11,629 nt of DNA from an uncultured Deinococcales bacterium (GTDB taxonomy: Bacteria > Deinococcota > Deinococci > Deinococcales > Trueperaceae): positions 1 through 11,629 of the forward strand of contig CALGZD010000121.1 in NCBI GenBank assembly GCA_937934635.1. The letters run 5' to 3'. How positions within the stretch are numbered: position 1 is the first letter of the stretch; each line of letters begins with the position of its first letter. Position numbers and translations under genes: made by a program. Positions 1,167-11,629 of this stretch are shown one piece after another. The notes beneath the pieces were generated by a model. That model saw only the letters and a program-made list of their open reading frames with translations. It searched no databases and was not told the origin of the DNA.

Positions 1167-2684
1167 GTGCCTAAAATTGCTGCCTACTTTAGTTTAGCAA
1201 CATTGCCACTCGATAGAGAGGCAGAGAAACCATTGCATAGGCAGCTCTATGAAAAGTTACAAAAAGAGATTTTAGAAGGGCGTTTACCACCTGGTACACG
1301 CTTGCCACCAACGCGTGCTTTAGCGACAGAATTATCACTATCCAGAAATACTGTAGGTCGTGCCTATGAGCAGTTGGTGGATGAGGGCTACTTAGAAAGT
1401 AAGATTGGTTCAGGAACAAGAGTTATGCAAACGCTGCCTGAGCAGATGCTGAGTGTGCTTAGTAATGAGCCTGAAACCTATATAGAAGACAAACCTGTTG
1501 TTAAAAAAGACGTTAAGCTTTCAAAACGTGGGGAGGCTGTTGTAAATGCCAAAGGATATTACTGGGGGTCGGGGGAGGCTCGAGCCTTCTCTCCAGCCCT
1601 CCCAGCACTTGACGCCTTTCCATATAAAGTGTGGGAAAAGTGCTTACACCAAAGTTTGCGACAGCTCAATACCAATCATTTAGGCTACCAAGATGTCATG
1701 GGTTTTTGGGGGCTTCGTGAGGAGCTTTCTAACTACTTAAAAGTTGCTAGAGGTGTGCGTTGTAACCCTGAACAGATCATGATTACAGGAGGCACACAAC
1801 AAGCATTAGAGCTTATCACCAGTCTTTTAGTTGATGAAGGTGATGAAGTCTGGGTTGAGAATCCAAGCTTTAGTGGTATTCAAGTTGTGTTGCAATCACA
1901 GCTCGCTAAGCTTGTTCCTGTTAGTGTTGACAGTGAAGGTTTAGTTGTCGATGAGGGCATCGAAAAAGCGGAAAGTGCCCGTATGGTCTATATATCTCCA
2001 TCGCACCAATACCCTCTAGGTGTCACCATGAGCCTGACCCGTAGGTTAAAGCTGTTGCAGTGGGCACAGGAGCAGACTGCATGGATTATAGAAGATGATT
2101 ACGATAGCGAGTACCGTTATGAAGGCTATCCACTAGCTGCACTTCAGGGTTTAGATACGTCAGGGCAGGTTATTTATTTAGGAACGTTTAGCAAGATTAT
2201 TGCCCCAACATTACGAATCGGCTATATTGTTGTTCCTCAAGAACTTATCGAGCCTATAAAAGCTGCAAGGCGCATACGTGATCGTGGTCAAAACCTTTTG
2301 GTGCAAATTGCTTTAGCTAACTTTATCAAAGAAGGTCATTTTGCAAGGCATATTAGACGGATGCGTGCGCTTTACGTAAAGCGTCAAAAGCTATTAATTC
2401 AAGAAATAAATAAAGAAGGGCAAGATGTTCTAACAGTAGAACCTCATGCAGCAGGTCTGCACCTTATAGCTTGGTTCAAAAAGCCAAACAGTACTATTAA
2501 TGAGGTAACACTGTCACAGCGATTACTACAAAAAGACATTGATGCACCTCCGCTATCACGCTTTGCCTTTAATGACTTAGACAGACAGGGATTACTGCTA
2601 GGCTATAGTGCGCCAGAACATGAAATTATTGCTGCAGCTAGGATGCTTAGGATTGTTTTAGCAGAGATGCAAAAAGAGGAATGA
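1167..2684 (+). CDS. MocR/GabR-family (TauR/PdxR-like) transcriptional regulator
   Basis: A 505-residue PLP-binding regulator. An N-terminal GntR-type winged helix (about 22-90; PLHRQLYEKLQKEIL, then LPPTRALATELSLSRNTV) is joined by a linker of about 45 residues to a fold-type I aminotransferase domain (about 135-500). In that domain GGTQQALELI (208-217) is the phosphate-cradle region, EDDYDSEY (309-316) carries the Asp expected to bind the PLP ring nitrogen, and GTFSK ends in the PLP-binding Lys343. Length and architecture are normal for the family. The start is GTG at 1167: an in-frame TGA at 1158 forbids extension and no ATG lies close downstream. The ribosome binding site is weak. Divergence from a TauA-like gene makes a TauR-like role the best guess, and control of the neighbouring BKACE gene is also possible. 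The effector is unknown. A stretch at 1577-1586 carries an RGCTCGAGCY decamer. Confidence 0.93.
   Translation: MPKIAAYFSLATLPLDREAEKPLHRQLYEKLQKEILEGRLPPGTRLPPTRALATELSLSRNTVGRAYEQLVDEGYLESKIGSGTRVMQTLPEQMLSVLSNEPETYIEDKPVVKKDVKLSKRGEAVVNAKGYYWGSGEARAFSPALPALDAFPYKVWEKCLHQSLRQLNTNHLGYQDVMGFWGLREELSNYLKVARGVRCNPEQIMITGGTQQALELITSLLVDEGDEVWVENPSFSGIQVVLQSQLAKLVPVSVDSEGLVVDEGIEKAESARMVYISPSHQYPLGVTMSLTRRLKLLQWAQEQTAWIIEDDYDSEYRYEGYPLAALQGLDTSGQVIYLGTFSKIIAPTLRIGYIVVPQELIEPIKAARRIRDRGQNLLVQIALANFIKEGHFARHIRRMRALYVKRQKLLIQEINKEGQDVLTVEPHAAGLHLIAWFKKPNSTINEVTLSQRLLQKDIDAPPLSRFAFNDLDRQGLLLGYSAPEHEIIAAARMLRIVLAEMQKEE
1577..1586. repeat. RGCTCGAGCY palindrome, copy 1 (inside mocR)
   Basis: GGCTCGAGCC, a perfect 10-bp palindrome, read here as Ala-Arg-Ala codons (GCT CGA GCC). 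It is one of six copies in the window. Confidence 0.8.
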
Positions 2685-2724
2685 CAATTAATTCCTAGTT
2701 TTGTATCTAGTTTTTCTCATAGTC

Positions 2725-3633
2725 CTATCGAGGTGGACGTTTTGTTAAACCTAACTTCTTACGAACATCTTCTGGACCCATGATTTTAGCCCCTAAACTT
2801 TCAATAATGCCAACAGCATGTGCAACTAGCTGCTCATTAGTAGCCAACTCACCTCGTTTAATCATGAGGTTATCTTCTAAGCCAACACGCACATTACCCC
2901 CTGCTAGAACTGCAGCAGCAACATATGGCATCTGGTGTCTTCCTAAGCTAAAAGCTGACCAGTTCCAGTCCGAAGGAACGTTGTTAACCATGGCCATAAA
3001 GGTATTTAAGTCATCTGGTGCTCCCCATGGAACGCCCATACAAAGTTGTACAAGCGCTGGGCTTTTTAAGATGCCATCATTGACAAGCTGTTTTGCATAC
3101 CACAAATGACCTGTGTCAAAGGCTTCAATCTCAGGGCACACCCCTAAGTCAGTCATCATTTGCCCCATAGCTTGTAGCATACCTGGGGTATTTGTCATGA
3201 CGTAATCAGCTTCTGCAAAGTTCATGGTGCCACAATCCAGTGTGCAAATTTCAGGTAGGCAATCTGCTATGTGTGCCACACGTTCAGTTGCACCTATCAT
3301 GTCTGTACCGTCTTTTGGAGGTAATGGATTTTCAATGCCACCAAATACTATATCGCCACCCATACCTGCTGTTAAATTCAAAACCACATCGACATCAGCA
3401 TCACGAATGCGCTCGGTGACTTCTCTATAAAGTTTTAAGTCACGTGCAGGTGTACCTGTGTCAGGGTCGCGAACATGACAATGAACAATAGCTGCCCCAG
3501 CCTTTGCAGCAGCAATAGCACTTTCTGCAATTTGTTGTGGGCTACGTGGTACGTGTGGACTACGGTCTTGGGTACTTCCTGAACCTGTAACAGCACAAGT
3601 GATGAATACATCTCTGTTCATTTCGAGTGGCAT
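2725..3633 (-). CDS. Beta-keto acid cleavage enzyme (BKACE, DUF849/Kce family), dehydrocarnitine-type
   Basis: A 302-residue TIM-barrel Zn enzyme. The family transfers the cleaved acid part of a beta-keto acid to acetyl-CoA, giving acetoacetate and an acyl-CoA. His51 and His53 in HCHVRDPDTG and Glu253 in RVGLEDN match the Zn ligands known from Kce, and Arg249 and Asp254 match its catalytic neighbours. The length is normal. Stretches such as NLTAGMGGDIVFGG and CTLDCGTMNFAEADYVMTN resemble the group that cleaves dehydrocarnitine to betainyl-CoA (CdhC-like), so carnitine breakdown is the preferred role. This is a recollection of family sequences, not a search. The ATG at 3633 has AGGAGA 7 nt upstream, which decides it over Met5. 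The gene is convergent with the MocR gene with 40 bp between stops. No carnitine dehydrogenase or thioesterase is visible here. A different beta-keto acid substrate cannot be excluded. Confidence 0.9.
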   Translation of the reverse strand: MPLEMNRDVFITCAVTGSGSTQDRSPHVPRSPQQIAESAIAAAKAGAAIVHCHVRDPDTGTPARDLKLYREVTERIRDADVDVVLNLTAGMGGDIVFGGIENPLPPKDGTDMIGATERVAHIADCLPEICTLDCGTMNFAEADYVMTNTPGMLQAMGQMMTDLGVCPEIEAFDTGHLWYAKQLVNDGILKSPALVQLCMGVPWGAPDDLNTFMAMVNNVPSDWNWSAFSLGRHQMPYVAAAVLAGGNVRVGLEDNLMIKRGELATNEQLVAHAVGIIESLGAKIMGPEDVRKKLGLTKRPPR

Positions 3634-3691
3634 AATTTTCTCCTAAATTTGTGTTTGGAGTTTACCTTTTTGCGGTATCGACTATCAAGCT

Positions 3692-3846
3692 ATTAGACGT
3701 TTGAAGGTGCATTCTTGTATTGGATGCCAAGCTAAAGCTAGTTTGCAAGATAGGTCTTGAAACGTTGCACCTTGGCGGTTTTTGCACTTCGTTTAAAAAC
3801 ACGCTAACTCAATCAGCATCCAATTTGCGTATGCACCCGACGTTAA
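3692..3846. repeat. Long imperfect inverted repeat upstream of the BKACE gene
   Basis: GGTGCAT...ATTGGATGC (3706-3727) is the imperfect inverse of GCATCCAAT...ATGCACC (3816-3837), with 17 of 22 positions pairing and outer TTA(G)ACGT/ACGTTAA extensions. The loop is about 90 bp. A further inverted TTGCACC at 3765-3771 can pair with the left arm instead, giving alternative hairpins. The element fills most of the gap between the metalloenzyme stop and the BKACE start. It could be a leader structure, a decayed MITE or an operator, and I do not recognise it. Confidence 0.5.
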
Positions 3847-3872
3847 GAGGATATGCTCATTTCTATATAGTT

Positions 3873-4808
3873 CTATGGTTTTTCTTGAGTAAGAAGTGTA
3901 AGGAATAAATCTTTTAGATCTAACAAACTTGATGGTACAGAGAGTATTGGAAGGTCATGACCATATACAATCAGAGGCACAGGATTTCGCGTATGTCCTT
4001 TGGTACTTTTATCTTCTAAATTACTGTGGTCAGAAGTAATGACTAAGGTATGTGACTGAGTTGCATCAAGTTGTTTGATGATACCTGAAATAAATGAATC
4101 AAGTACTTCGATAAGCTTGACGCAGTCAGCAAAGTCAAAGCGGTGCCCTGCTCTATCGCTCAACCAAAAGTCAAATACGGTTAAATCTGTTTCGCTAGCA
4201 ACAGTCACTAAACGTTTAGTTGCTTCAATCGGGGTATATACAAGTCCATTTGAATAGTCTGAAAAATATCTTCCTGTTATATCAGCAGCAATGGCATGAC
4301 CTTGAGCATAATCATCAAAATTGCGTTTTTTGACCCCTGCTTTGTCTAGAGCGTAAGTAAGTGAGCTGAGACGTAGCTTTCTATTCTCTAATGCGTCAAA
4401 GTAGCCCTGTGGATAAGCATTTGCCAACGCCACCCTTTTACCATCGTTGACTAAATCACTAAATAGTGTGCCTTCATCTAAGAACTTGAGCAAGGTAGGA
4501 CCAGGCCATGGTCCTACATGCCGCCCTAAAACTTCAGAAGCATTGCGCCCTGTCACAATCGTTGCTTGTCCTGTGGCAGATTGAGGTAAGCCCTCAGTAT
4601 TCAGATTTGCATCGATAGCTTGGATTAATTTAGTTTTGCTATGTTCAGGTCTAAATGCACTCCTATGCAAGCTGCCTGATAATTCATCTAAACAAGGCGT
4701 TTTTGCTGAAACAAAAGGATTGATAGTGGCATCATCACTACCAATACCTACACCATCAAGAAACAAAAAGATGACTCCTTTTTGTTTTGCTTGCTTTTTA
4801 AGTTGCAA
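3873..4808 (-). CDS. Alkaline phosphatase-superfamily metalloenzyme (phosphoglycerate mutase-like)
   Basis: A 311-residue protein of the binuclear-metal phosphatase/phosphomutase superfamily. Metal and catalytic motifs appear in the expected order: Asp18 in FLFLDGVGIG, the presumed nucleophile Ser77 in LPQSATGQATIVTG, Asp218 and His222 in SDRAGH, Asp260-His261 in TSDHSN, and His272 in GHTRNPVPLIVYG. It is much shorter than cofactor-independent phosphoglycerate mutase (about 510) and lacks room for its inserted domain, so a small phosphatase, mutase or phosphodiesterase is likelier. The substrate is unknown. No ATG is available in frame: the start is taken as TTG at 4808, just 5 bp after the stop of the upstream gene and without a clear Shine-Dalgarno, which points to translational coupling. 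There is no signal peptide, so it should be cytoplasmic. Confidence 0.82.
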   Translation of the reverse strand: MQLKKQAKQKGVIFLFLDGVGIGSDDATINPFVSAKTPCLDELSGSLHRSAFRPEHSKTKLIQAIDANLNTEGLPQSATGQATIVTGRNASEVLGRHVGPWPGPTLLKFLDEGTLFSDLVNDGKRVALANAYPQGYFDALENRKLRLSSLTYALDKAGVKKRNFDDYAQGHAIAADITGRYFSDYSNGLVYTPIEATKRLVTVASETDLTVFDFWLSDRAGHRFDFADCVKLIEVLDSFISGIIKQLDATQSHTLVITSDHSNLEDKSTKGHTRNPVPLIVYGHDLPILSVPSSLLDLKDLFLTLLTQEKP

Positions 4809-4813
4809 GGTGA

Positions 4814-5791
4814 TTATTCGCTATCTTTAGATTTATTGCGTTTGTGGCTGCGTTGATAGCTATCACGACGACTTCGTCCACTTTGAGATGGTCTTGACCG
4901 CTTTGATCGATTTGATTTTTTCGGTTTGCCAGAAGATGGCTTATTGCTTGAGCTGTTTGAGCTGCTTGAATTACTTGAGCTGCTTGAACTGCTTGAGTTA
5001 CTGCTAGCATCTGAGCGGTTTTGCCCTTTGCCCTTTGTAGTTTGTTTATCGCTACGATTGTTACTGCTATTGCTGCCCCGACCTCGACCTCTTTTACTGC
5101 TTTTACTGCGACCACTTCGACGGTTGTTGCGACCACTTCGTCCGCTAGAGCGATTGCGCCTATTGCTATGACGGATATCGTCGTTGAGATAGCCTTCTTC
5201 TTCACTAAAGGATTCAAGCTCTGCTTCGATGACTTGTTGTCCAATGCGTTGATTTAGCTTAAGAATGTTGTGAGGTGCTTCACTGTCTATGTAAACCAGA
5301 CTGCCCCCCGGATGTAACTCGAAAACACGTGCTACTTTGAGCTCTCCTGCTAGCTCGAGCTCAACCTCTGGCAGTTGTCTAATGGTCACGTCTCTTCCTA
5401 GCATCGGCACACGCGTATGTTCCTGCTCAGCAGGAATAAAACGCAATTGGTAGAGGAGTCCTAAAGGATCTTGGTAAGGCAAAAGGTAGGGTGCGCTGGC
5501 ACTATCACCGCCATCTTTAAAGACCTTAACTAAGCCTGCACCTTTATCGAAGCGCACTTCGTAGCTGCGCTTATGGTTTTTATCTTGATTCTCTTCTCGA
5601 AAATACAAGCTATGAAAATCAGGACGATACAAACGGCTGGATTGTTTGACAATTTTCTCGTCAAGACTTCCTTGCAGGTTTAATTTACTTTCTAAATAGA
5701 CAATTCGGCGATTCTCTTGACTACGCAGTACTTGAGAACCAATCGAACGACCTCGTATTTTTAATGTGTAGCGACAACTTTCAATCGTCAT
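4814..5791 (-). CDS. DUF3108-like protein with a long Ser/Arg/Lys-rich disordered tail
   Basis: A 325-residue protein with two parts. Residues 1-195 form a beta-rich domain with an opening like MTIESCRYTLKIRGRSIGSQ and a central YLLPYQDPLGLLYQLR (102-117), which recalls DUF3108-type beta-barrel proteins. Residues about 207-325 are low-complexity: Arg/Ser/Asn-rich (208-260), a Ser/Asn run (263-283), then Lys/Arg/Ser (285-325). The tail is strongly basic and predicted to be disordered, so binding to RNA, DNA or an anionic polymer is possible. No signal peptide is visible, unlike many DUF3108 members. The ATG at 5791 has only a weak AGGG upstream. It is the first gene of a two-gene unit with the metalloenzyme. 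I do not know its function, and the family assignment is tentative. Confidence 0.7.
   Translation of the reverse strand: MTIESCRYTLKIRGRSIGSQVLRSQENRRIVYLESKLNLQGSLDEKIVKQSSRLYRPDFHSLYFREENQDKNHKRSYEVRFDKGAGLVKVFKDGGDSASAPYLLPYQDPLGLLYQLRFIPAEQEHTRVPMLGRDVTIRQLPEVELELAGELKVARVFELHPGGSLVYIDSEAPHNILKLNQRIGQQVIEAELESFSEEEGYLNDDIRHSNRRNRSSGRSGRNNRRSGRSKSSKRGRGRGSNSSNNRSDKQTTKGKGQNRSDASSNSSSSSSSSNSSSSNSSSNKPSSGKPKKSNRSKRSRPSQSGRSRRDSYQRSHKRNKSKDSE
4943..5005. repeat. 9-bp period coding repeat giving a Ser/Asn run
   Basis: On the plus strand the unit CTTGAGCTG and its close variants repeat with a 9-bp period, which on the minus strand encodes the Ser/Asn run at residues 263-283 of the DUF3108-like protein. 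Copies differ by single bases (GCTG, ATTA, ACTG), so the array has drifted since expansion. Because 9 is a multiple of 3, length changes would keep the frame. Confidence 0.75.
5352..5361. repeat. RGCTCGAGCY palindrome, copy 2 (inside DUF3108-like gene)
   Basis: AGCTCGAGCT, read on the minus strand as GAG CTC GAG (Glu-Leu-Glu), a different codon phase from copy 1. Confidence 0.8.
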
Positions 5792-5803
5792 AATTATTAG
5801 CCC

Positions 5804-5827
5804 TGTGTCAAAGATTGTGTCAAAGAT
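5804..5827 (-). repeat. Perfect 12-bp tandem duplication carrying two TTGACA boxes
   Basis: TGTGTCAAAGAT occurs twice head to tail (5804-5815 and 5816-5827). On the minus strand each copy contains TTGACA, the -35 consensus, 13-32 bp before the DUF3108-like ATG. AATAAT (5798-5793) lies 19 bp after the upstream TTGACA, which would place the transcript start at or just inside the ATG, a nearly leaderless arrangement. Promoter function is inferred. Confidence 0.45.
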
Positions 5828-5829
5828 AT

Positions 5830-5882
5830 GGGGTTATCGATGCCTATTATGCAAACCCCCTAATGGGCATAGCCCATCCTAC
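5830..5882 (-). repeat. REP-like palindrome pair with 5' GTAG
   Basis: On the minus strand GTAG (5882-5879) precedes the hairpin ATGGGC-TAT-GCCCAT (5877-5863), the layout of REP elements: a conserved GTAG-type tetranucleotide followed by a palindrome. Next to it is a second hairpin, AACCCC/GGGGTT (5854-5859 with 5830-5835) with an inner TGC/GCA pair. Two adjacent hairpins resemble a REP doublet. No REP-associated transposase is in the window. Confidence 0.5.
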
Positions 5883-6151
5883 AAATTTATGCTACATCTA
5901 ATTTTTGGAATATTTTCAAAAGCAGCAGTGATAGCTATTCTTAGTATAGCAGAATTTAAGTGTAACAGATATTGCGATGTGAGTTTATCAGAGGTGCGTT
6001 TGAAATTTAGTGGATACATCAGACTATTGAGATGTTTTTGTAGCGCAGCGAAAAAAACTCTGAGGTATGTCTGCATAAAATTTTCAAACAGTTTAGGTCA
6101 AACCTAGATATTAATTGCCCTTCACTATGCAGACACGCCATTTTATCAGTT

Positions 6152-7090
6152 TTACCAGTAATTGGTGCAGCTACGTCCAGATGCATCTAAGCTGTATGTT
6201 TTTTGCCAAAAGCTATAGCCAAGGCTATTGGTATAGTCACAGAAATCATCGGCATGATGTTCGTAAATTGCGCCAAAGACAGCTTTGCCCGCTTCGACAA
6301 AGGGCAAGAGCATTTCACATTCTCGGTAGCTGATGCACTCTTCGTTGAGCGCCCAATCAAAGTAAGGCTCGAGCTCACGTACCTGCTCAAGATTATTTTT
6401 TAAGCCAATGGATAAACCACGTTTATGTGCTTCAGTTGCTAGCATGATGTTGTAGCTAAGTTGGTCTTCGGGTGTTAAAGGTCTACCCGTATTGTTGCTG
6501 TAAGCATCAACATTGTCGGGTTCAACCCCATCACAGCCTTTTTTGACTGCTAAGTCCATACGACTAGTCATGATAGCTTTTAGTTCATCAAGGTAGCGAA
6601 TATCAAGCCACCATTCATTCCAGTGTTGCATTTTGTTGGCAAGTAATTCTCTTGGAAATAGATGAGCATCTGAACGCCAAGGCTCAAAACTACCAGCACT
6701 AAAGTAGCAAATCACTACTTTGCCATCAGCTTGAAGTGCTTGGATGGTTGTTTCGTGGGTATCAAATAGGTCAATGTCGTACATGTCTACATCAAGAGAA
6801 GTATCTATACGACCTGTAAGTTGCCAGTGGAAGGTTGTTCCTGGCCTAGGTTGCCATATTTTGCCTGAGCGGACTCCTGGACGGTAGTCTGTTTGCTGTT
6901 TGTAAAACTTGTATGCATAGAGAAACACGACAGCTAAAAGAACGAGTAAAGCAAGAATGGTTAAAATTCTAGACCATTTTGCACCTGCACCTTTTGCACC
7001 TGGACCTTTTGCACCTGCACCTTTTTGATTGGTGTTCGTTTGGTTGGTGTTAGTTGTGTTGTCGTTAGTTTGATAATCTGATTCTTGCAT
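6152..7090 (-). CDS. Membrane-anchored GH114 endo-alpha-1,4-polygalactosaminidase-like hydrolase
   Basis: A 312-residue protein. The N-terminus (1-38) is low-complexity: an Asn/Thr/Gln-rich part, then KGAGA-type pentads. A transmembrane segment follows (about 42-63) without a cleavage site, then the GH114 domain (about 70-312) facing the periplasm or cell surface. The domain has WQPRPGTTFHWQLTG, VVICYFSAGSFEPWR and GCDGVEPDNVDAY. Asp192 and Glu250 are 58 residues apart, the spacing I recall for the proposed catalytic acids of fungal Ega3 (from memory). The family cleaves alpha-1,4-linked galactosamine polymers such as galactosaminogalactan and relates to Pel-type exopolysaccharide. It follows a UDP-GlcNAc 4-epimerase-like gene on the same strand, so a GalN/GalNAc-containing polymer is a reasonable guess. 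The start is uncertain: ATG at 7090 is preferred, TTG at 7099 is possible, and neither has a good ribosome binding site. Confidence 0.85.
   Translation of the reverse strand: MQESDYQTNDNTTNTNQTNTNQKGAGAKGPGAKGAGAKWSRILTILALLVLLAVVFLYAYKFYKQQTDYRPGVRSGKIWQPRPGTTFHWQLTGRIDTSLDVDMYDIDLFDTHETTIQALQADGKVVICYFSAGSFEPWRSDAHLFPRELLANKMQHWNEWWLDIRYLDELKAIMTSRMDLAVKKGCDGVEPDNVDAYSNNTGRPLTPEDQLSYNIMLATEAHKRGLSIGLKNNLEQVRELEPYFDWALNEECISYRECEMLLPFVEAGKAVFGAIYEHHADDFCDYTNSLGYSFWQKTYSLDASGRSCTNYW
6366..6375. repeat. RGCTCGAGCY palindrome, copy 3 (inside GH114 gene)
   Basis: GGCTCGAGCT, read on the minus strand as GAG CTC GAG CC (Glu-Leu-Glu-Pro), the same phase as copy 2. Confidence 0.8.
6977..7021. repeat. 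Three 15-bp tandem repeats encoding Lys-Gly-Ala/Pro-Gly-Ala pentads
   Basis: TTTTGCACCTGCACC occurs three times end to end (6977-6991, 6992-7006, 7007-7021), with one G-for-C change in the middle copy. On the minus strand this encodes KGAGA/KGPGA/KGAGA just before the transmembrane segment of the GH114 protein. It may act as a variable-length spacer at the membrane. Confidence 0.85.
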
Positions 7091-7110
7091 ACTGCCCAAT
7101 AATTGGCGAA

Positions 7111-7181
7111 GCCCTATAAGATGTGTCTTAAAATAATTTAAGTGCGAAACACGTCCCTAATGTGTTTCATCCTTATAGAGC
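7111..7181 (-). ncRNA. Candidate structured leader RNA (three-way junction) upstream of the GH114 gene
   Basis: The minus-strand transcript can form an outer stem of 10 pairs (7181-7172 with 7120-7111, one G-U) that encloses two perfect hairpins: GAAACAC/GTGTTTC (7168-7162 with 7152-7146, 9-nt loop) and CTTAAA/TTTAAG (7142-7137 with 7132-7127, TTAT loop). It ends about 20 nt before the ATG. I could not match it to a known riboswitch class. It may instead be a processing site or a chance fold in the gap between epimerase and hydrolase genes. Confidence 0.4.
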
Positions 7182-7256
7182 TTACAACCAATTCTCCCTA
7201 AAAACCCTGTATTACAACAAGCTTATCTACATGGATAACTCATCAAACACAAAACT

Positions 7257-7277
7257 TAGAGATATGAGATATCTCTA
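7257..7277 (-). terminator. Weak terminator-like hairpin at the end of the epimerase gene
   Basis: TAGAGATAT-GAG-ATATCTCTA is a perfect 9-bp inverted repeat with a 3-nt loop. On the minus strand it begins with the epimerase TAG stop and is followed by AAGTTTTGTGTTTG. The stem is A/T-rich and the T-tract broken, so termination would be partial and the GH114 gene could still be co-transcribed. Confidence 0.35.
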
Positions 7278-8279
7278 GGCGGCATGGGTGAGAAGTTTTT
7301 GCATGTAGGCTTGGTGATACCAAGAAATAGTGGCAGCAATGTCTTTGCTTAAGTTGTTACGTGGTTGAAAGTTCAAGTACTCAATTGCTTTTCGAATATC
7401 TATTTGCTTTCCCTCTTGCTGCTCTAAATACGAAGGTAAAGACTCAGTCTGGCTATTAATAGTTAGTTCAGGATAGTAAGTATCAAAAGCTTTGGTGATA
7501 TTTTCAAAAAGGTTCTGCAAACTTAGGTAATAGCCTGAAGTGATATCGTAGCTTTGACCAGAAGCAGCATCATTAGCAATTGCTGCCAAAATATTTGCCT
7601 GTACGACATCATCGATATAAACAAAATCTCTAGCATTGTTTTTTGAACCATAAAGTGTACATTGCTGGTCATTTAAGAGTTGGTCAATCCAGTAAGGTAC
7701 AAGTGCTGGATTGCTAGAGTGATTTTGTTGGCGTTTGCCAAATACATTGTGATAACGCAAGGCAATGCTTGTTAGAGGCGGACTATTACGATGTGATGTT
7801 GTTGTAAAAAGCTCGTTGATGTAGGTATTTGATGCAAAGGGGGTATTGAGGGCAGCAGCAGGGCTCGAGCTAGCATATACAAATCGTTTTATGCCATTTT
7901 CTTGGGCAGCTTCCATAACATTTAAAAAGCCACATACATTCACACGATTAACTTCACTGCTATCCGCTGATTGACTATTTAACCCTGCGTGATGCAGTAC
8001 ATAATCAACATCTTGTATCGCAGCTTTACATTCTGAAAACCTTGTGATGTCTGCTTTTCGAAAGCTAAAACGTGACCAGCGTCTTTTAGATACAGAGGCT
8101 TGTACGTCTAGTAGTGTTTGGCTCGAGCCAACACTAAAATTATCTAGACCAATAACTTCTTGATCCAACCTGAGTAGGGTTTCCAAGATATTTGAGCCAA
8201 CAAAACCTGCTACGCCAGTAATCAACCAGCGTTTTGGTCGTGCTCTTAAATTTTCTTGTACTCTCAAATAATGTTCCAT
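7275..8279 (-). CDS. WbpP-like UDP-N-acetylglucosamine 4-epimerase homologue lacking the Tyr-Lys catalytic pair
   Basis: A 334-residue extended short-chain dehydrogenase homologue. Homologues such as WbpP interconvert UDP-GlcNAc(A) and UDP-GalNAc(A). The N-terminus matches the WbpP pattern (ARPKRWLITGVAGFVGSN, residues 13-30), with the NAD-binding Gly22/25/28, Asp46 in LDNF, and later LRYHNVFGKRQ (174-184) and RDFVYIDDVVQAN (217-229). WbpP has a Ser-Ser-Ser-Thr-Tyr-Gly motif and then Ser-Pro-Tyr-x-x-x-Lys. Here the region reads YASSSPAAALNTPFASNTYINELF (135-158, shown in parts): the Tyr is Phe148, the Lys is Thr152, and about ten residues between the motifs are missing. The substrate loop after LHHAG is also shortened. 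The frame is open throughout, so this looks like a pseudo-enzyme or a decaying gene. The ATG is supported by homology, though its ribosome binding site is weak. Confidence 0.85.
   Translation of the reverse strand: MEHYLRVQENLRARPKRWLITGVAGFVGSNILETLLRLDQEVIGLDNFSVGSSQTLLDVQASVSKRRWSRFSFRKADITRFSECKAAIQDVDYVLHHAGLNSQSADSSEVNRVNVCGFLNVMEAAQENGIKRFVYASSSPAAALNTPFASNTYINELFTTTSHRNSPPLTSIALRYHNVFGKRQQNHSSNPALVPYWIDQLLNDQQCTLYGSKNNARDFVYIDDVVQANILAAIANDAASGQSYDITSGYYLSLQNLFENITKAFDTYYPELTINSQTESLPSYLEQQEGKQIDIRKAIEYLNFQPRNNLSKDIAATISWYHQAYMQKLLTHAA
7862..7871. repeat. RGCTCGAGCY palindrome, copy 4 (inside epimerase gene)
   Basis: GGCTCGAGCT, read on the minus strand as AGC TCG AGC (Ser-Ser-Ser), the third codon phase. 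It lies in the SSS motif next to the lost catalytic segment. Confidence 0.8.
8120..8129. repeat. RGCTCGAGCY palindrome, copy 5 (inside epimerase gene)
   Basis: GGCTCGAGCC, read on the minus strand as GGC TCG AGC C (Gly-Ser-Ser), the same phase as copy 4 and 258 bp from it. Confidence 0.8.
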
Positions 8280-8463
8280 AATTAACCAGTTGTATCAAAT
8301 GTATGAATTTTGCTGTACGTTACTTCCGTTTGATATTTATTTGGTCTTGAGTAGAAGTTGCACTAAATAATTAAAAAGCGATTCAAAGATTATAGAAGAA
8401 TGCAAGTTAAACGCAAGATACCTGCACTAGTGTGATACGCAGTGTGTCGAAAAAATGTCGAAT

Positions 8464-8485
8464 GAAGGATGTATGAAGAATGTAT
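8464..8485. repeat. 11-bp tandem repeat GAAGRATGTAT x2
   Basis: GAAGGATGTAT (8464-8474) and GAAGAATGTAT (8475-8485) are adjacent and differ at one base. A TATAGT begins two bases later (8487-8492). The 11-bp period equals that of the array before the SARP-like gene, although the sequence differs. Confidence 0.55.
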
Positions 8486-8616
8486 GTATAGTTGGAAATC
8501 TTGAGAATACAGAGATTTACTCATTATCTTTGCATTAAAAACACATAACCCTGCTTAATGGGAAAAGTTTAAAGACAAGTTATGCATTTTGAAGCTCATA
8601 ATTAAGCCACAATTTC

Positions 8617-8622
8617 TATAAT
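8617..8622 (+). promoter_or_regulatory. Isolated TATAAT box before the repeat arrays
   Basis: A perfect TATAAT stands 22 bp upstream of the first TTATCAGTGGCCTA repeat. The nearest -35-like hexamer, TTGAAG (8589-8594), is 22 bp away, which is too far for a normal promoter. Initiation here would give a transcript through both repeat arrays to the terminator at 8986. Confidence 0.25.
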
Positions 8623-8643
8623 GTAAGTCAGTATTTTGCAAGC

Positions 8644-8692
8644 TTATCAGTGGCCTACTATATATCAGTGACTTACTTTTATCAGTGGCCTA
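8644..8692. repeat. Three direct repeats TTATCAGTGGCCTA (17-18-bp spacing)
   Basis: TTATCAGTGGCCTA occurs at 8644-8657 and identically at 8679-8692, with a degenerate copy ATATCAGTGACTTA between them (8662-8675). A partial TTAGTGG follows at 8693-8699. Copies start 18 and 17 bp apart. Iteron-like spacing suggests protein binding, but there is no replication gene here. Confidence 0.7.
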
Positions 8693-8731
8693 TTAGTGGT
8701 TATTGGTAATGTTGCGATTTAGCTAAACTTT

Positions 8732-8852
8732 TTAAAGTTTTGTTAGTTCAAAGCTGTGTTAGTCAAGCCTGTGCTGGTCAAAGCTGTGTTAGTTAAAGCT
8801 GTACTGCTCAAAGCTGTGTTAGTTAAAGCTGTGCTGGTCAAAGCTGTGTTAG
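8732..8852. repeat. 15-bp minisatellite (7 clear units plus a degenerate first) with alternating unit types
   Basis: The unit TCAAAGCTGTGTTAG is identical in units 1, 3, 5 and 7 (8748, 8778, 8808, 8838). Units 2, 4 and 6 are variants (TCAAGCCTGTGCTGG, TTAAAGCTGTACTGC, TTAAAGCTGTGCTGG), giving a 30-bp higher-order repeat. A degenerate unit TTAAAGTTTTGTTAG lies at 8732-8746, one base out of register. It is non-coding by default, though one plus-strand frame stays open through it. Confidence 0.9.
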
Positions 8853-8958
8853 TTACAGTCTTAAGTGTATTGATAGTTGTAAATTTTTATTTGAGACTTC
8901 TCTAAACTAAGTCTTTAAAAAATCGCACTTTAAGAAGTTGTAATTGTTAAACATAAAG

Positions 8959-8986
8959 AGTGTTCACAAAACTGTGAACACTTTTT
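8959..8986 (+). terminator. Strong Rho-independent terminator
   Basis: AGTGTTCACA (8959-8968) pairs perfectly over 10 bp with TGTGAACACT (8973-8982) around an AAAC loop and is followed by TTTT (8983-8986). The T-tract is better on the plus strand. A second, weaker A/T hairpin with its own T-tract follows at 8994-9012. No recognised gene lies upstream on this strand for over 6 kb, so it implies an unannotated transcript or an attenuator. Confidence 0.75.
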
Positions 8987-9067
8987 ATGGCGCAAACATT
9001 AAAATGTTTTTTAGGAGATGGCGTACTTACAAATTTCCATAGCTTAAAGCAAATACTCAAATATCTC

Positions 9068-9102
9068 ACAGATATTATATAGATATTACACAGATTTATA
9101 AT
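9068..9102 (+). promoter_or_regulatory. SARP-type operator: 11-bp direct repeats with TATAAT, candidate promoter of the BTAD gene
   Basis: Three consecutive 11-mers (9068-9078, 9079-9089, 9090-9100) have cores AGATATTA, AGATATTA and AGATTTAT. A TATAAT (9097-9102) starts 8 bp after the second core, overlapping the third. SARP regulators are known to bind direct repeats at 11-bp period, with the last repeat about 8 bp from the -10 element, so the geometry fits. There is no -35 consensus, as in activator-dependent promoters. The leader would be about 140 nt. Autoregulation is inferred. Confidence 0.5.
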
Positions 9103-9249
9103 TGCTTATAACTTGTGTTTATATGTGTATTGAACTTTAGAAGGTGTATAAGAAAGATTTTAGCTATTTGTAAATGTTATTTCGTACGTATTGCTTCTTA
9201 GATGTATGCGCTGATTTGTTCGAAATAGAAAATTTTAGGGAGAAAATAT

Positions 9250-11424
9250 ATGGATGACAAACTATCTAGTAATGGGGCGAAAAGTCCTATTACTATTAAT
9301 AACAGTCCATATGATTCACTCTATGATATTGACCAAAGACAAAATAATCTAAATGATTTTGAGCTTGATAACTTGGAGCTTGATGGTCTTGAATTGGATA
9401 GCCTTGAACTAAATGGACTTGATTTAGATAGTGCTACAGGGGAAGTTGTTCCTACTGATTCTAATCTTGCTGATGCTAATCTTATATTGACTAAACATCA
9501 GAATAAAGAAGACTTAGCTAATCATCTCCAGAGAACTTCTAGTACACGTAATTATGGCGATTCTCGATTTTATCTAAAACTCTTTGGTTCACCACGTCTC
9601 TATTACCTTAATAACCATGTCAAACTTGGAACCCGTAAAGCTATGGCCTTACTGTGCTACTTAGCCATACGCCAAGCACCTGTGCAAAGGCATGAGCTGG
9701 ATGCATTGCTCTGGCCTGAAAAAGACGAAAAGCGTGCAAGACGTAGTTTGCGGGACGAAATTTCAAGAATTAACCGAACCATAGGTGAAGATATTGTTCT
9801 TAGCTCTGGGCAGGAACTGAGTTTATCGACGGATATTGCTGTTGATGTATGGAAGTTTAGTGAGACTATCGAAAGTTTAAGCAGTCTTGAAGAGATTGAT
9901 ATTAGTACCTTTGAAGAGGTTGTATCTTTATATGATGGTCAATTGCTTGCTGGTTTTCATATTCAAAATGCACAACCTTTTGAAGACTGGATTGAGTTAG
10001 AACGAGAAAACTGTCAACATGATTACCTTGAAGCACTGTTAAGCCTTAGCCACGGAGCAAAAAATTATGGTAATTACACCACTGCTGTAAATTATATGCA
10101 GAAGGCTATAGAGGTAAGTCCTTATACAGAAGAGTATTATCTATATGCAATTGAATATGCACTACTCAACGGTGATCGCTCACGAGCACAAAAGTTACAT
10201 CAAGATATTGAAGTAGTTTTACAGAAGGAATTTGCTGAAGGTACTAGCGAAAATTTCAAGACCAGAGTTGCTGCCTTAGGCTTAAATACGGTTGAAAAAG
10301 ACTTAGCTACAGCGATTACGGGTATTGAGCTTAGTAGTGAGACTGTAGTGAAGCAAGCTGAATCTGTAACTGATAGTACGCAATATAAAAACAATCTGTA
10401 TGAAGATGCACTGCCATTCATTGGTAGAGAAGATGAGTTACGACGTTTGGATAATCTTATTTGGGAAGATGACTGCAAACTGATTTCACTGGTTGGTTTA
10501 GGTGGTATTGGGAAAACCCGACTTGCAAAGCAAGCAGCATCGCTATCTCAAGCGCATTTCCCAGATGGTGTTTGGTTTATTCCTATTGAGAAGTTAGATA
10601 CACCGCATGAGCTTTTTTCTGTGATTGCTGATTGTCTTTCTCTAAGCCTAGAATCAATGTCTGCCTATACTGCGTGTATGCAACACTTAAAGTCAAAGCG
10701 AATGCTTTTGATTTTGGATAACTTAACAAATAATCCAACCATTAGAAAACATATCAAAACTATCTTGCTCCTGAGAGCGGGGAAAATCTTGGTGACATCA
10801 ACACAACACTTAGGTCTACAAGAAGAGTGGATATTTGATGTACGAGGTTTAGCTCTACCAAGCAGTGTGTTGCCAGATTTTGACGAAGCCATCTTTGATA
10901 AGTCTAATTCTAGAGATGCCGAACTTTTTGTGGCAAAACTAAAAAGCTTAGATGCAATTCGTTTGTTTATAGAGAGTGCCAAGCAGACGCAACCAGATTT
11001 TAAGTTTTCTACTGAAAATGCTAAAGATGTGATTACAATTTGCGAAGCTACTGACGGTATACCATTAGGTCTACAGTTAGCAGCTCGCCGACTCCGTACA
11101 CTTTCTTGTGAAGAGCTAGCAGAAGAAATTCGACGTGGTAGTGATGTGCTTAGAACCACATTTTGGGACGTACCTGATAATCAGAGGAGCCTTAGAGCGG
11201 TTTTTCAAAGTGCTTATGATAGCCTGCGTGACCCTGAAAAGGAACTATACCGAAAGCTTGCCCAGTTTGAAGGCAGTTTTGATAGGTATCAGGCAAGAGA
11301 ATTGACAGGTGCTACCACAGTTGATTTGGCACATTTTGTTGAACGTTCTTTGCTTATTAAAGACGCAAAAGGCGTGTATCAAATGCTGAATTTTGTTCGT
11401 CATTATATTGATGATTTGGTATAG
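9250..11424 (+). CDS. BTAD/NB-ARC (SARP/AfsR-like) transcriptional regulator, C-terminally short
   Basis: A 724-residue regulator. An acidic, disordered N-terminus (1-105) contains ELDxL pentads (38-61). A winged-helix OmpR-type domain (about 107-200; LFGSPRLYYL, RKAMALLCYLAI, ELDALLWPEKDEKRARRSLRDEISRI) and a bacterial transcriptional activator TPR-like domain (about 201-345) follow. The NB-ARC ATPase starts at FIGREDELRRL (390), with Walker A GLGGIGKT (416-423, Lys422), Walker B MLLILDN (Asp490) and a GIPLGLQLAARRL motif (603-615). The protein stops after a winged helix ending in YQMLNFVRHYI, where homologues normally continue with TPR sensor repeats, so regulation by a TPR-bound ligand is probably absent. 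The ATG has AGGGAG 7 nt upstream. No frame continuation resembling TPR follows the stop. Its target genes are unknown, and the flanking nucleotide-sugar genes are candidates. Confidence 0.87.
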   Translation: MDDKLSSNGAKSPITINNSPYDSLYDIDQRQNNLNDFELDNLELDGLELDSLELNGLDLDSATGEVVPTDSNLADANLILTKHQNKEDLANHLQRTSSTRNYGDSRFYLKLFGSPRLYYLNNHVKLGTRKAMALLCYLAIRQAPVQRHELDALLWPEKDEKRARRSLRDEISRINRTIGEDIVLSSGQELSLSTDIAVDVWKFSETIESLSSLEEIDISTFEEVVSLYDGQLLAGFHIQNAQPFEDWIELERENCQHDYLEALLSLSHGAKNYGNYTTAVNYMQKAIEVSPYTEEYYLYAIEYALLNGDRSRAQKLHQDIEVVLQKEFAEGTSENFKTRVAALGLNTVEKDLATAITGIELSSETVVKQAESVTDSTQYKNNLYEDALPFIGREDELRRLDNLIWEDDCKLISLVGLGGIGKTRLAKQAASLSQAHFPDGVWFIPIEKLDTPHELFSVIADCLSLSLESMSAYTACMQHLKSKRMLLILDNLTNNPTIRKHIKTILLLRAGKILVTSTQHLGLQEEWIFDVRGLALPSSVLPDFDEAIFDKSNSRDAELFVAKLKSLDAIRLFIESAKQTQPDFKFSTENAKDVITICEATDGIPLGLQLAARRLRTLSCEELAEEIRRGSDVLRTTFWDVPDNQRSLRAVFQSAYDSLRDPEKELYRKLAQFEGSFDRYQARELTGATTVDLAHFVERSLLIKDAKGVYQMLNFVRHYIDDLV
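9361..9432. repeat. 15-bp period coding repeat giving ELDxL pentads
   Basis: Codons 38-61 of the SARP-like gene repeat with a 15-bp period, encoding ELDNL, ELDGL, ELDSL, ELNGL and DLDS. Third codon positions differ between units, so the array is old or selected at protein level. Regular Leu with acidic residues suggests an amphipathic acidic surface. Confidence 0.8.
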
Positions 11425-11467
11425 CTACTCAAAGAGCGAAAACAGTATAGAATTAACTTAAACCACA

Positions 11468-11629
11468 TCAATTTAAAGCAATAGACTTAACTGCTTCAAT
11501 GACTTTGTCTTGTTGTTCTTTTGTGAGATTTGGATAGATAGGTAGACATAGGATGCTACTGGCAGCAGCTCGAGCCCGCCCTATATCCCCACGTTCGCAG
11601 CCCTTCAAAGGTGGTAAATCAGCCAAAGT
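11468..11629 (-). CDS. DegT/DnrJ/EryC1/StrS-family sugar aminotransferase, C-terminal end
   Basis: The last 53 residues before a TGA. They contain SSILCLPIYPNLTKEQQDKVIEAVKSIA, shown in two pieces as SSILCLPIYPNLTKE and QQDKVIEAVKSIA. This is the typical C-terminal LP-x-YP-x-LT-x-EQ signature of PLP-dependent nucleotide-sugar aminotransferases (WbpE, PglE, ArnB types), which add an amino group to a keto-sugar nucleotide. The PLP lysine and most of the enzyme lie outside the window. The gene is convergent with the SARP-like gene, 43 bp apart. Together with the WbpP-like gene it suggests a surface-polysaccharide locus. Confidence 0.8.
   Translation of the reverse strand, partial: TLADLPPLKGCERGDIGRARAAASSILCLPIYPNLTKEQQDKVIEAVKSIALN
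11567..11576. repeat. RGCTCGAGCY palindrome, copy 6 (inside aminotransferase gene)
   Basis: AGCTCGAGCC, read on the minus strand as GCT CGA GCT (Ala-Arg-Ala), the same phase as copy 1. Confidence 0.8.

Follow-up and report, generated by a model that had tools for sequence, protein, structure and literature searches.

A genome-wide highly iterated palindrome in a clade of Deinococcota, and a putative orphan adenine methyltransferase that may keep it

The octamer GCTCGAGC was studied in an 11,629-nt stretch of DNA from an uncultured Deinococcales bacterium of the Trueperaceae (hereafter the window) and in the genomes of its relatives. We found that it is a real, clade-wide highly iterated palindrome (HIP) that is constrained at the level of DNA; apparently, it evolved apart from HIP1, the HIP of cyanobacteria. 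The window holds six copies (Table 1), against 0.12 expected under an order-2 Markov model and a mean of 0.08 in dinucleotide shuffles, none of 200 of which attained six (maximum, two). An earlier, sequence-only reading of the window had put the random expectation at below 0.2 copies, in agreement with both estimates, and had listed the same six copies by the start of the decamer RGCTCGAGCY, one base before the octamer. Among the 256 palindromic octamers, GCTCGAGC ranked first in the window. All six CTCGAG hexamers lie within it, and all six extend to the decamer, with a purine (R) or pyrimidine (Y) as required at 12 of 12 flanking positions. Every copy had also been placed in a gene: five are within listed open reading frames (ORFs), and the sixth is within a minus-strand frame that is incomplete at the end of the window and whose 53 residues match DegT/DnrJ/EryC1 (E 8e-5, a value above the Pfam cut-off).

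The best match to the epimerase of the window in the genome collection was found at L001 of an uncultured Deinococcales metagenome-assembled genome (MAG), G001 (73% identity), where the neighbouring regulator is syntenic. The comparison set comprised 39 genomes of the family of G001 and 111 of its phylum. In the whole G001 genome (~3.8 Mb), GCTCGAGC occurs 1,724 times and the reversed word, used as a control, 44 times. The corresponding counts were 5,222 and 102 in G002, 1,592 and 41 in G009, 2,625 and 136 in G012, and 3,103 and 74 in G018, so that the ratio of octamer to control was 19-51 in these five genomes. It was 12 in G010, 9 in G022, 2.4 in G017, 2.1 in G006, 1.4 in G013 and 1.3 in G015, and ranged from 0.64 to 2.5 in the remaining 28 of the 39 family genomes. 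The density of GCTCGAGC was 277-875 per Mb in G001, G009 and the nine family genomes that carry the candidate methyltransferase described below.

Expected counts from Markov models were based on samples, available for 38 of the 39 genomes of the family (that of the remaining genome was masked) and in several cases only 3-9 kb long. The order-2 ratio of observed to expected octamers (O/E) exceeded 3.6 in nine of the 38, a threshold set after the values had been seen, and single values near 3 are rough. It was 63 in G001, 61 in G009, 46 in G002, 39 in G012, 28 in G018, 7.5 in G010, 5.4 in G022, and 4.1 in both G013 and G017. At a GC content similar to that of some of these HIP genomes, G003, G004 and G025 gave 2.0, 1.0 and 0.9. 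The O/E values cover 63 of the 111 phylum genomes; left out were G014 (masked sample), G030 and G034 (no usable sample), and G077, G085 and 43 others, none of them sampled. Among the 256 palindromic octamers, GCTCGAGC came first in 12 of the 19 samples ranked (the window, the nine relatives with an excess, G006 and G074, a probable Meiothermus) and second in G015 and G029. These results bear out the suggestion of the sequence-only reading that the octamer is iterated like HIP1 with a different sequence: by the whole-genome counts of the relatives, the excess is neither confined to the window nor close to the Markov expectation. The gaps between sites showed no clear regularity in seven samples (coefficient of variation, 0.68-1.17). 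In a DnaG tree of 29 genomes, built without G001, G050 and eight genomes that lack a complete DnaG locus, the strong excess was confined to one 11-genome clade (support, 100/100); it marks one clade, probably of Trueperaceae. A search of the open-licence PMC literature, with REBASE outside its scope, returned no earlier report of GCTCGAGC as an iterated sequence in Deinococcota.

The sequence-only reading had placed the constraint on DNA and not on protein. A codon control was carried out in which the expectation for each reading frame was the product of the codon frequencies. In G001, 11, 4 and 23 octamers were observed in the three frames against 0.39, 0.05 and 0.10 expected (total O/E, 70). 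Since the octamer exceeds the codon model in every frame, the constraint acts on DNA, and neither protein sequence nor codon choice explains it. Two octamers in the window fall in each codon phase (encoding ARA, ELE and SS), as had been pointed out. The relatives also use all phases but unevenly, the Leu-Glu frame (nnG-CTC-GAG-Cnn) being the commonest, with 23 of 38 octamers in long frames of G001.

We examined which positions of the octamer are constrained by counting one-base deviants in eight relatives. Deviants at positions 1 and 8 were found at 13.3 times the expectation in G018, 10.8 times in G009 and 7.4 times in G002, and at 1.2-3.0 times in the remaining five (2.0-3.0 times in G012, G013 and G022). 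Those at the six inner positions stayed at 0.4-1.7 times in all eight. The concentration of deviants at the outermost bases, clear in three of the eight relatives, suggests that CTCGAG is probably the recognised unit. The constrained core is thus probably the 6-bp CTCGAG, with the G and C outside it a lineage-dependent preference and the outer R and Y a weak one. The share of CTCGAG that lies within GCTCGAGC was 90% in G001, 85% in G012, 69% in G009, 59% in G010 and 54% in G002, and 8-31% in the rest of the family genomes sampled. The decamer, strict in the window, is a preference and not a rule in the eight relatives, where the flanking base was R at 58-73% of sites, against a background of 44-60% before GCT. 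The strict decamer and the even use of phases in the window are therefore partly the luck of a small sample. The one further position that was tallied, -2, showed no clear preference, and the suggestion that the sites are the footprint of a mobile element found no support there.

Retention of the sites was followed in an alignment of 6.0 kb of window DNA with G001 (73% identity). It does not include the stretch around copy 1, which leaves five aligned window octamers. Three of the five recur at the corresponding place in G001, which holds three extra octamers absent from the window. Identity extended over 11% of all 8-mers and over 8 of 24 palindromic 8-mers, the five octamers included. Octamer sites are thus kept more often than average 8-mers, yet they turn over, although the numbers are small. 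In the dnaG stretch compared between G002 and G018, none of four G002 octamers was identical, and the CTCGAG core was kept in three of the four.

Searches for methyltransferase families in the 39 family genomes identified an orthologous gamma-class family, A2. The three A2 proteins tested contain the Pfam domains N6_Mtase and M_Eco57I_C, and the catalytic-type motif reads NPPF in seven of eight aligned orthologues and NPPY in that of G015. A structure model (pLDDT 89) gave CamA and M.BseCI, both adenine methyltransferases, as its best PDB matches, at ~16% sequence identity. A profile search detected A2 in 23 of the 111 phylum genomes, nine in the family and 14 in the group that we take to be Meiothermus. 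The gene adjoins dnaG in three of the nine family carriers (G002, G012 and G017), is at most four genes from it in G006 and G022, is ~11 kb from it in G013, and is on a separate contig in G010, G015 and G018; on the other side it is flanked by V-ATPase genes in G002, G012, G017 and G018. A scan of 19 ORFs near A2 in eight of the nine carriers, a part of its neighbours, detected no nuclease domain; four of the 19 matched no family above cut-off. A2 is a putative orphan adenine methyltransferase, both its specificity and its orphan status being predicted. In the family, an octamer excess was present in seven of nine A2 carriers and in two of 29 sampled non-carriers (Fisher p 9e-5). The orphan methyltransferase that the sequence-only reading had proposed to look for thus has an adenine-type candidate that tracks the motif within the family, but with exceptions and in a pattern confounded by descent.

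We read these results as a second HIP system that is, with confidence a little above even, kept by orphan adenine methylation at CTCGAG. In this reading, a gamma-class orphan enzyme of ~550-600 aa (M.Eco57I/M.BseCI/CamA type) would methylate adenine at N6 in CTCGAG, and a chromosomal process that uses the methylated palindrome, or is biased by it, would lead to the gain and retention of methylated sites; mismatch or recombinational repair and chromosome organisation are candidates for that process. We infer the methylation of the sites, and with it any function that they may have.

Several observations weigh against this reading. A2 was not found in G001 or G009, the two relatives nearest the window. 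The assembly of G001 also lacks dnaG, so the missing A2 says little there; G009, which belongs to the HIP clade, has the excess and has dnaG, with no A2 beside dnaG and none anywhere at E 1e-20. Two carriers, G006 in the clade and G015 outside it, show only a weak excess. With four changes on the DnaG tree and three independent pairs (on average 0.8 agree, none oppose and the rest are equal), there are too few independent events for the tree to test the link between A2 and the excess, which is confounded by descent. G003 carries a distant relative of A2 (122 bits, 23-28% identity). Plasmid homologues occur in 84 records (29-36% identity among the matches listed), and in five of six records examined the gene is followed by an ORF of unknown kind, possibly a restriction enzyme. 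That ORF gave no Pfam or NCBIfam match in five cases tested and no PDB sequence match in the one tested, and therefore gives no guide to the specificity of A2. The outer-base deviants are weak where the octamer dominates (1.9 times the expectation in G001, 1.2 in G010 and 2.4 in G012); since the hexamer signal is weak in these three genomes, the unit there may be 8 bp. In the probable Meiothermus group, A2 is unlinked to the excess of CTCGAG (12 carriers and 8 non-carriers; p 0.73), and the G029 group, the strongest in CTCGAG, is without A2. No other gamma methyltransferase shared by G001 and G009, or by the G029 group, recurred among the candidates compared, for which not every match was fetched, and no phage homologues of the G013 A2 enzyme were found.

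Outside the family, two groups are taken, provisionally, as probable Meiothermus and probable Thermus. In the probable Meiothermus group, 20 of whose 22 genomes were sampled, CTCGAG was present at 4-13 times the order-1 expectation, with or without A2. Six genomes (G029, G033, G034, G037, G038 and G041; the G029 group) contain CTCGAG at 5,900-7,700 per Mb, and in the five of them that were sampled it exceeded the codon model in every frame (O/E, 12-26). The related palindrome GAGCTC is scarce in this group, at 2-25 copies per genome. The nearest named matches of one G029 protein were in Deinobacterium and other Deinococcota, with Myxococcaceae at similar identity. Across 27 probable Thermus genomes (G028, G032 and G086-G110), GCTCGAGC was found 2-33 times and CTCGAG 1,443-2,513 times; by these raw counts, GCTCGAGC looks avoided in this sister group.

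The strongest competing explanation, which we regard as rather unlikely, is that the palindrome is bound, independently of methylation, by a nucleoid, segregation, replication or repair protein, with the methyltransferase a bystander inherited in the clade. The highest order-2 O/E values are in G001 and G009, where A2 was not detected, the carriers G006 and G015 have little excess, CTCGAG is enriched in the G029 and probable Meiothermus groups irrespective of A2, and common descent could produce the link; all of this would fit a binding protein. The near misses at the outer bases, however, resemble the 6-bp target of a methyltransferase, and the sister pair G003 and G004, inside the HIP clade, is without both an A2 orthologue and a clear excess. 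In cyanobacteria, the occurrence of HIP1 and of the alternate HIPs follows that of methyltransferases (passages of PMC4390886).

Two further explanations are both improbable and, in our judgement, equally so. The G-methyl-C ratchet of Elhai would have a cytosine methyltransferase act on CTCGAG, G-methylcytosine arise beside the site, and biased repair build GCTCGAGC with no selection on the sequence. It accommodates the G and C around CTCGAG and the near misses at the outermost bases, is a published explanation of HIP1 (in passages of PMC4390886), and has a parallel in the cytosine methylation of CTCGAG described for Halorubrum in part of PMC8112702. Searches with PF00145 and PF01555, on the other hand, found no cytosine methyltransferase shared among the 39 family genomes, a result weakened by gaps in the MAGs: the C5 family PF00145 was present in seven of the 39 and in two of the nine HIP genomes, once as a 109-aa fragment, and the N6/N4 family PF01555 was above cut-off in one of the nine (G010). 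The other explanation is a DNA-uptake or Chi-like recombination signal, kept through the uptake or recombination of related DNA. Like uptake sequences, GCTCGAGC is genome-wide, embedded in genes and clade-specific, and naturally competent species occur among Deinococcota. Against it, a palindrome has no strand polarity, the known uptake and Chi sequences are, to our knowledge, not palindromic, and the flanking rule varies between related lineages. An origin of the excess in codon usage or base composition, for which the favoured codon pair CTC GAG of GC-rich relatives and the common Leu-Glu frame might speak, can be practically discounted, because the excess stands in all three frames when set against the codon model, persists under Markov models of order 1 and order 2, is strongest in AT-rich genomes, and is small or missing in G003, G004 and G025 at similar GC.

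Table 1. The six copies of GCTCGAGC in the window, the genes that contain them and their state in the aligned stretch of G001
Copy	Position	Containing gene	Family	State in G001
1 (GGCTCGAGCC)	1578..1585	1167-2684, +	GntR/aminotransferase (Pfam GntR + Aminotran_1_2); presumably MocR/PdxR-type	
2 (AGCTCGAGCT)	5353..5360	4814-5791, -	DUF3108	kept at the same place
3 (GGCTCGAGCT)	6367..6374	6152-7099, -	GH114	not kept
4 (GGCTCGAGCT)	7863..7870	7275-8279, -	NAD-dependent epimerase	kept
5 (GGCTCGAGCC)	8121..8128	7275-8279, - (with copy 4)	NAD-dependent epimerase	not kept
6 (AGCTCGAGCC)	11568..11575	11468-11629, - (incomplete frame)	DegT/DnrJ/EryC1-type	kept

Other repeats were observed in the window. 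A hairpin-forming interspersed element at 3706-3838 has the inverted ends GGTGCAT..TTGGATGC and GCATCCAA..ATGCACC; its core (~3764-3806) is found at 13 listed places in G001 (85-93% identity), and the element looks like a family of the clade of the repetitive extragenic palindrome (REP) or miniature inverted-repeat transposable element (MITE) type. In the 1-kb gap that precedes the BTAD/NB-ARC regulator, a 15-nt tandem array with the unit TCAAAGCTGTGTTAG occupies 8733-8858; it shows up as six 51-nt copies that overlap. The 16-nt repeat TCTTGAGTAAGAAGTG is identical at 155-170 and 3883-3898, 3.7 kb apart. In G009 (L305:2044-7810), genes for a GH114 protein, a DUF3492 glycosyltransferase (which we take to be PelF-like) and an Agd3-like deacetylase directly follow dnaG; a GH114 gene is present in the window as well (6152-7099).

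Deinococcota may, as a tentative proposal, hold a whole independent HIP system based on CTCGAG that takes contrasting forms from one sister lineage to another: restricted to the octamer in G012 and G001, where 85-90% of CTCGAG is inside GCTCGAGC; at the level of the hexamer in the G029 group; and with the octamer nearly absent in probable Thermus. The role of HIP1 has been an open question ever since it was described in 1995, and cyanobacteria have been the case studied (passages of PMC4390886). At ~60 times chance in the closest sequenced relatives, GCTCGAGC is a second system in which to ask what HIP repeats do. A second phylum with another word and a candidate adenine-type enzyme could separate hypotheses of a methylation-driven sequence, a mutational by-product and a binding site, for which the close relatives without orthologue and excess and the sister group nearly without the octamer are useful contrasts. 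If adenine methylation drives GCTCGAGC, HIPs would be a general product of orphan methylation, and G-methyl-C could not be their general cause.

Among known enzymes, M.BseCI, M.Eco57I and CamA share with A2 the N6_Mtase and M_Eco57I_C domains and the motif NPP[FY], and its modelled fold matches CamA and M.BseCI. Their targets are ATCGAT (M.BseCI), CTGAAG (M.Eco57I) and CAAAAA (CamA), none of which is CTCGAG. An orphan methyltransferase has been assigned to CTCGAG, as proposed here, in Nocardia (Blow 2016, in the relevant part of PMC4752239); there, motif clusters are reported from non-coding sequence that separates dnaA from a DNA polymerase III gene, whereas here the sites are genome-wide and in genes. 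In its anatomy, GCTCGAGC resembles HIP1 (GCGATCGC) and the alternate HIPs of cyanobacteria as they appear in passages of PMC4390886. These are likewise palindromic octamers with a hexamer core and, in many genomes, variable outer bases; like GCTCGAGC, they are sometimes one base longer on each side and are associated with methyltransferases, some HIP genomes being without the expected enzyme. Near misses at the outer bases were reported for HIP1 by Elhai in the same passages. The density of HIPs is 300-2,700 per Mb by that account, the same range as that of GCTCGAGC, and the 5,900-7,700 CTCGAG per Mb of the G029 group exceed its upper value, a hexamer being compared there with an octamer. The two systems differ in phylum, in sequence (GCTCGAGC, not GCGATCGC) and in core, which is CTCGAG here instead of CGATCG, and one adenine-type candidate stands here in place of the cytosine enzyme and the GATC enzyme that those passages connect with HIP1.

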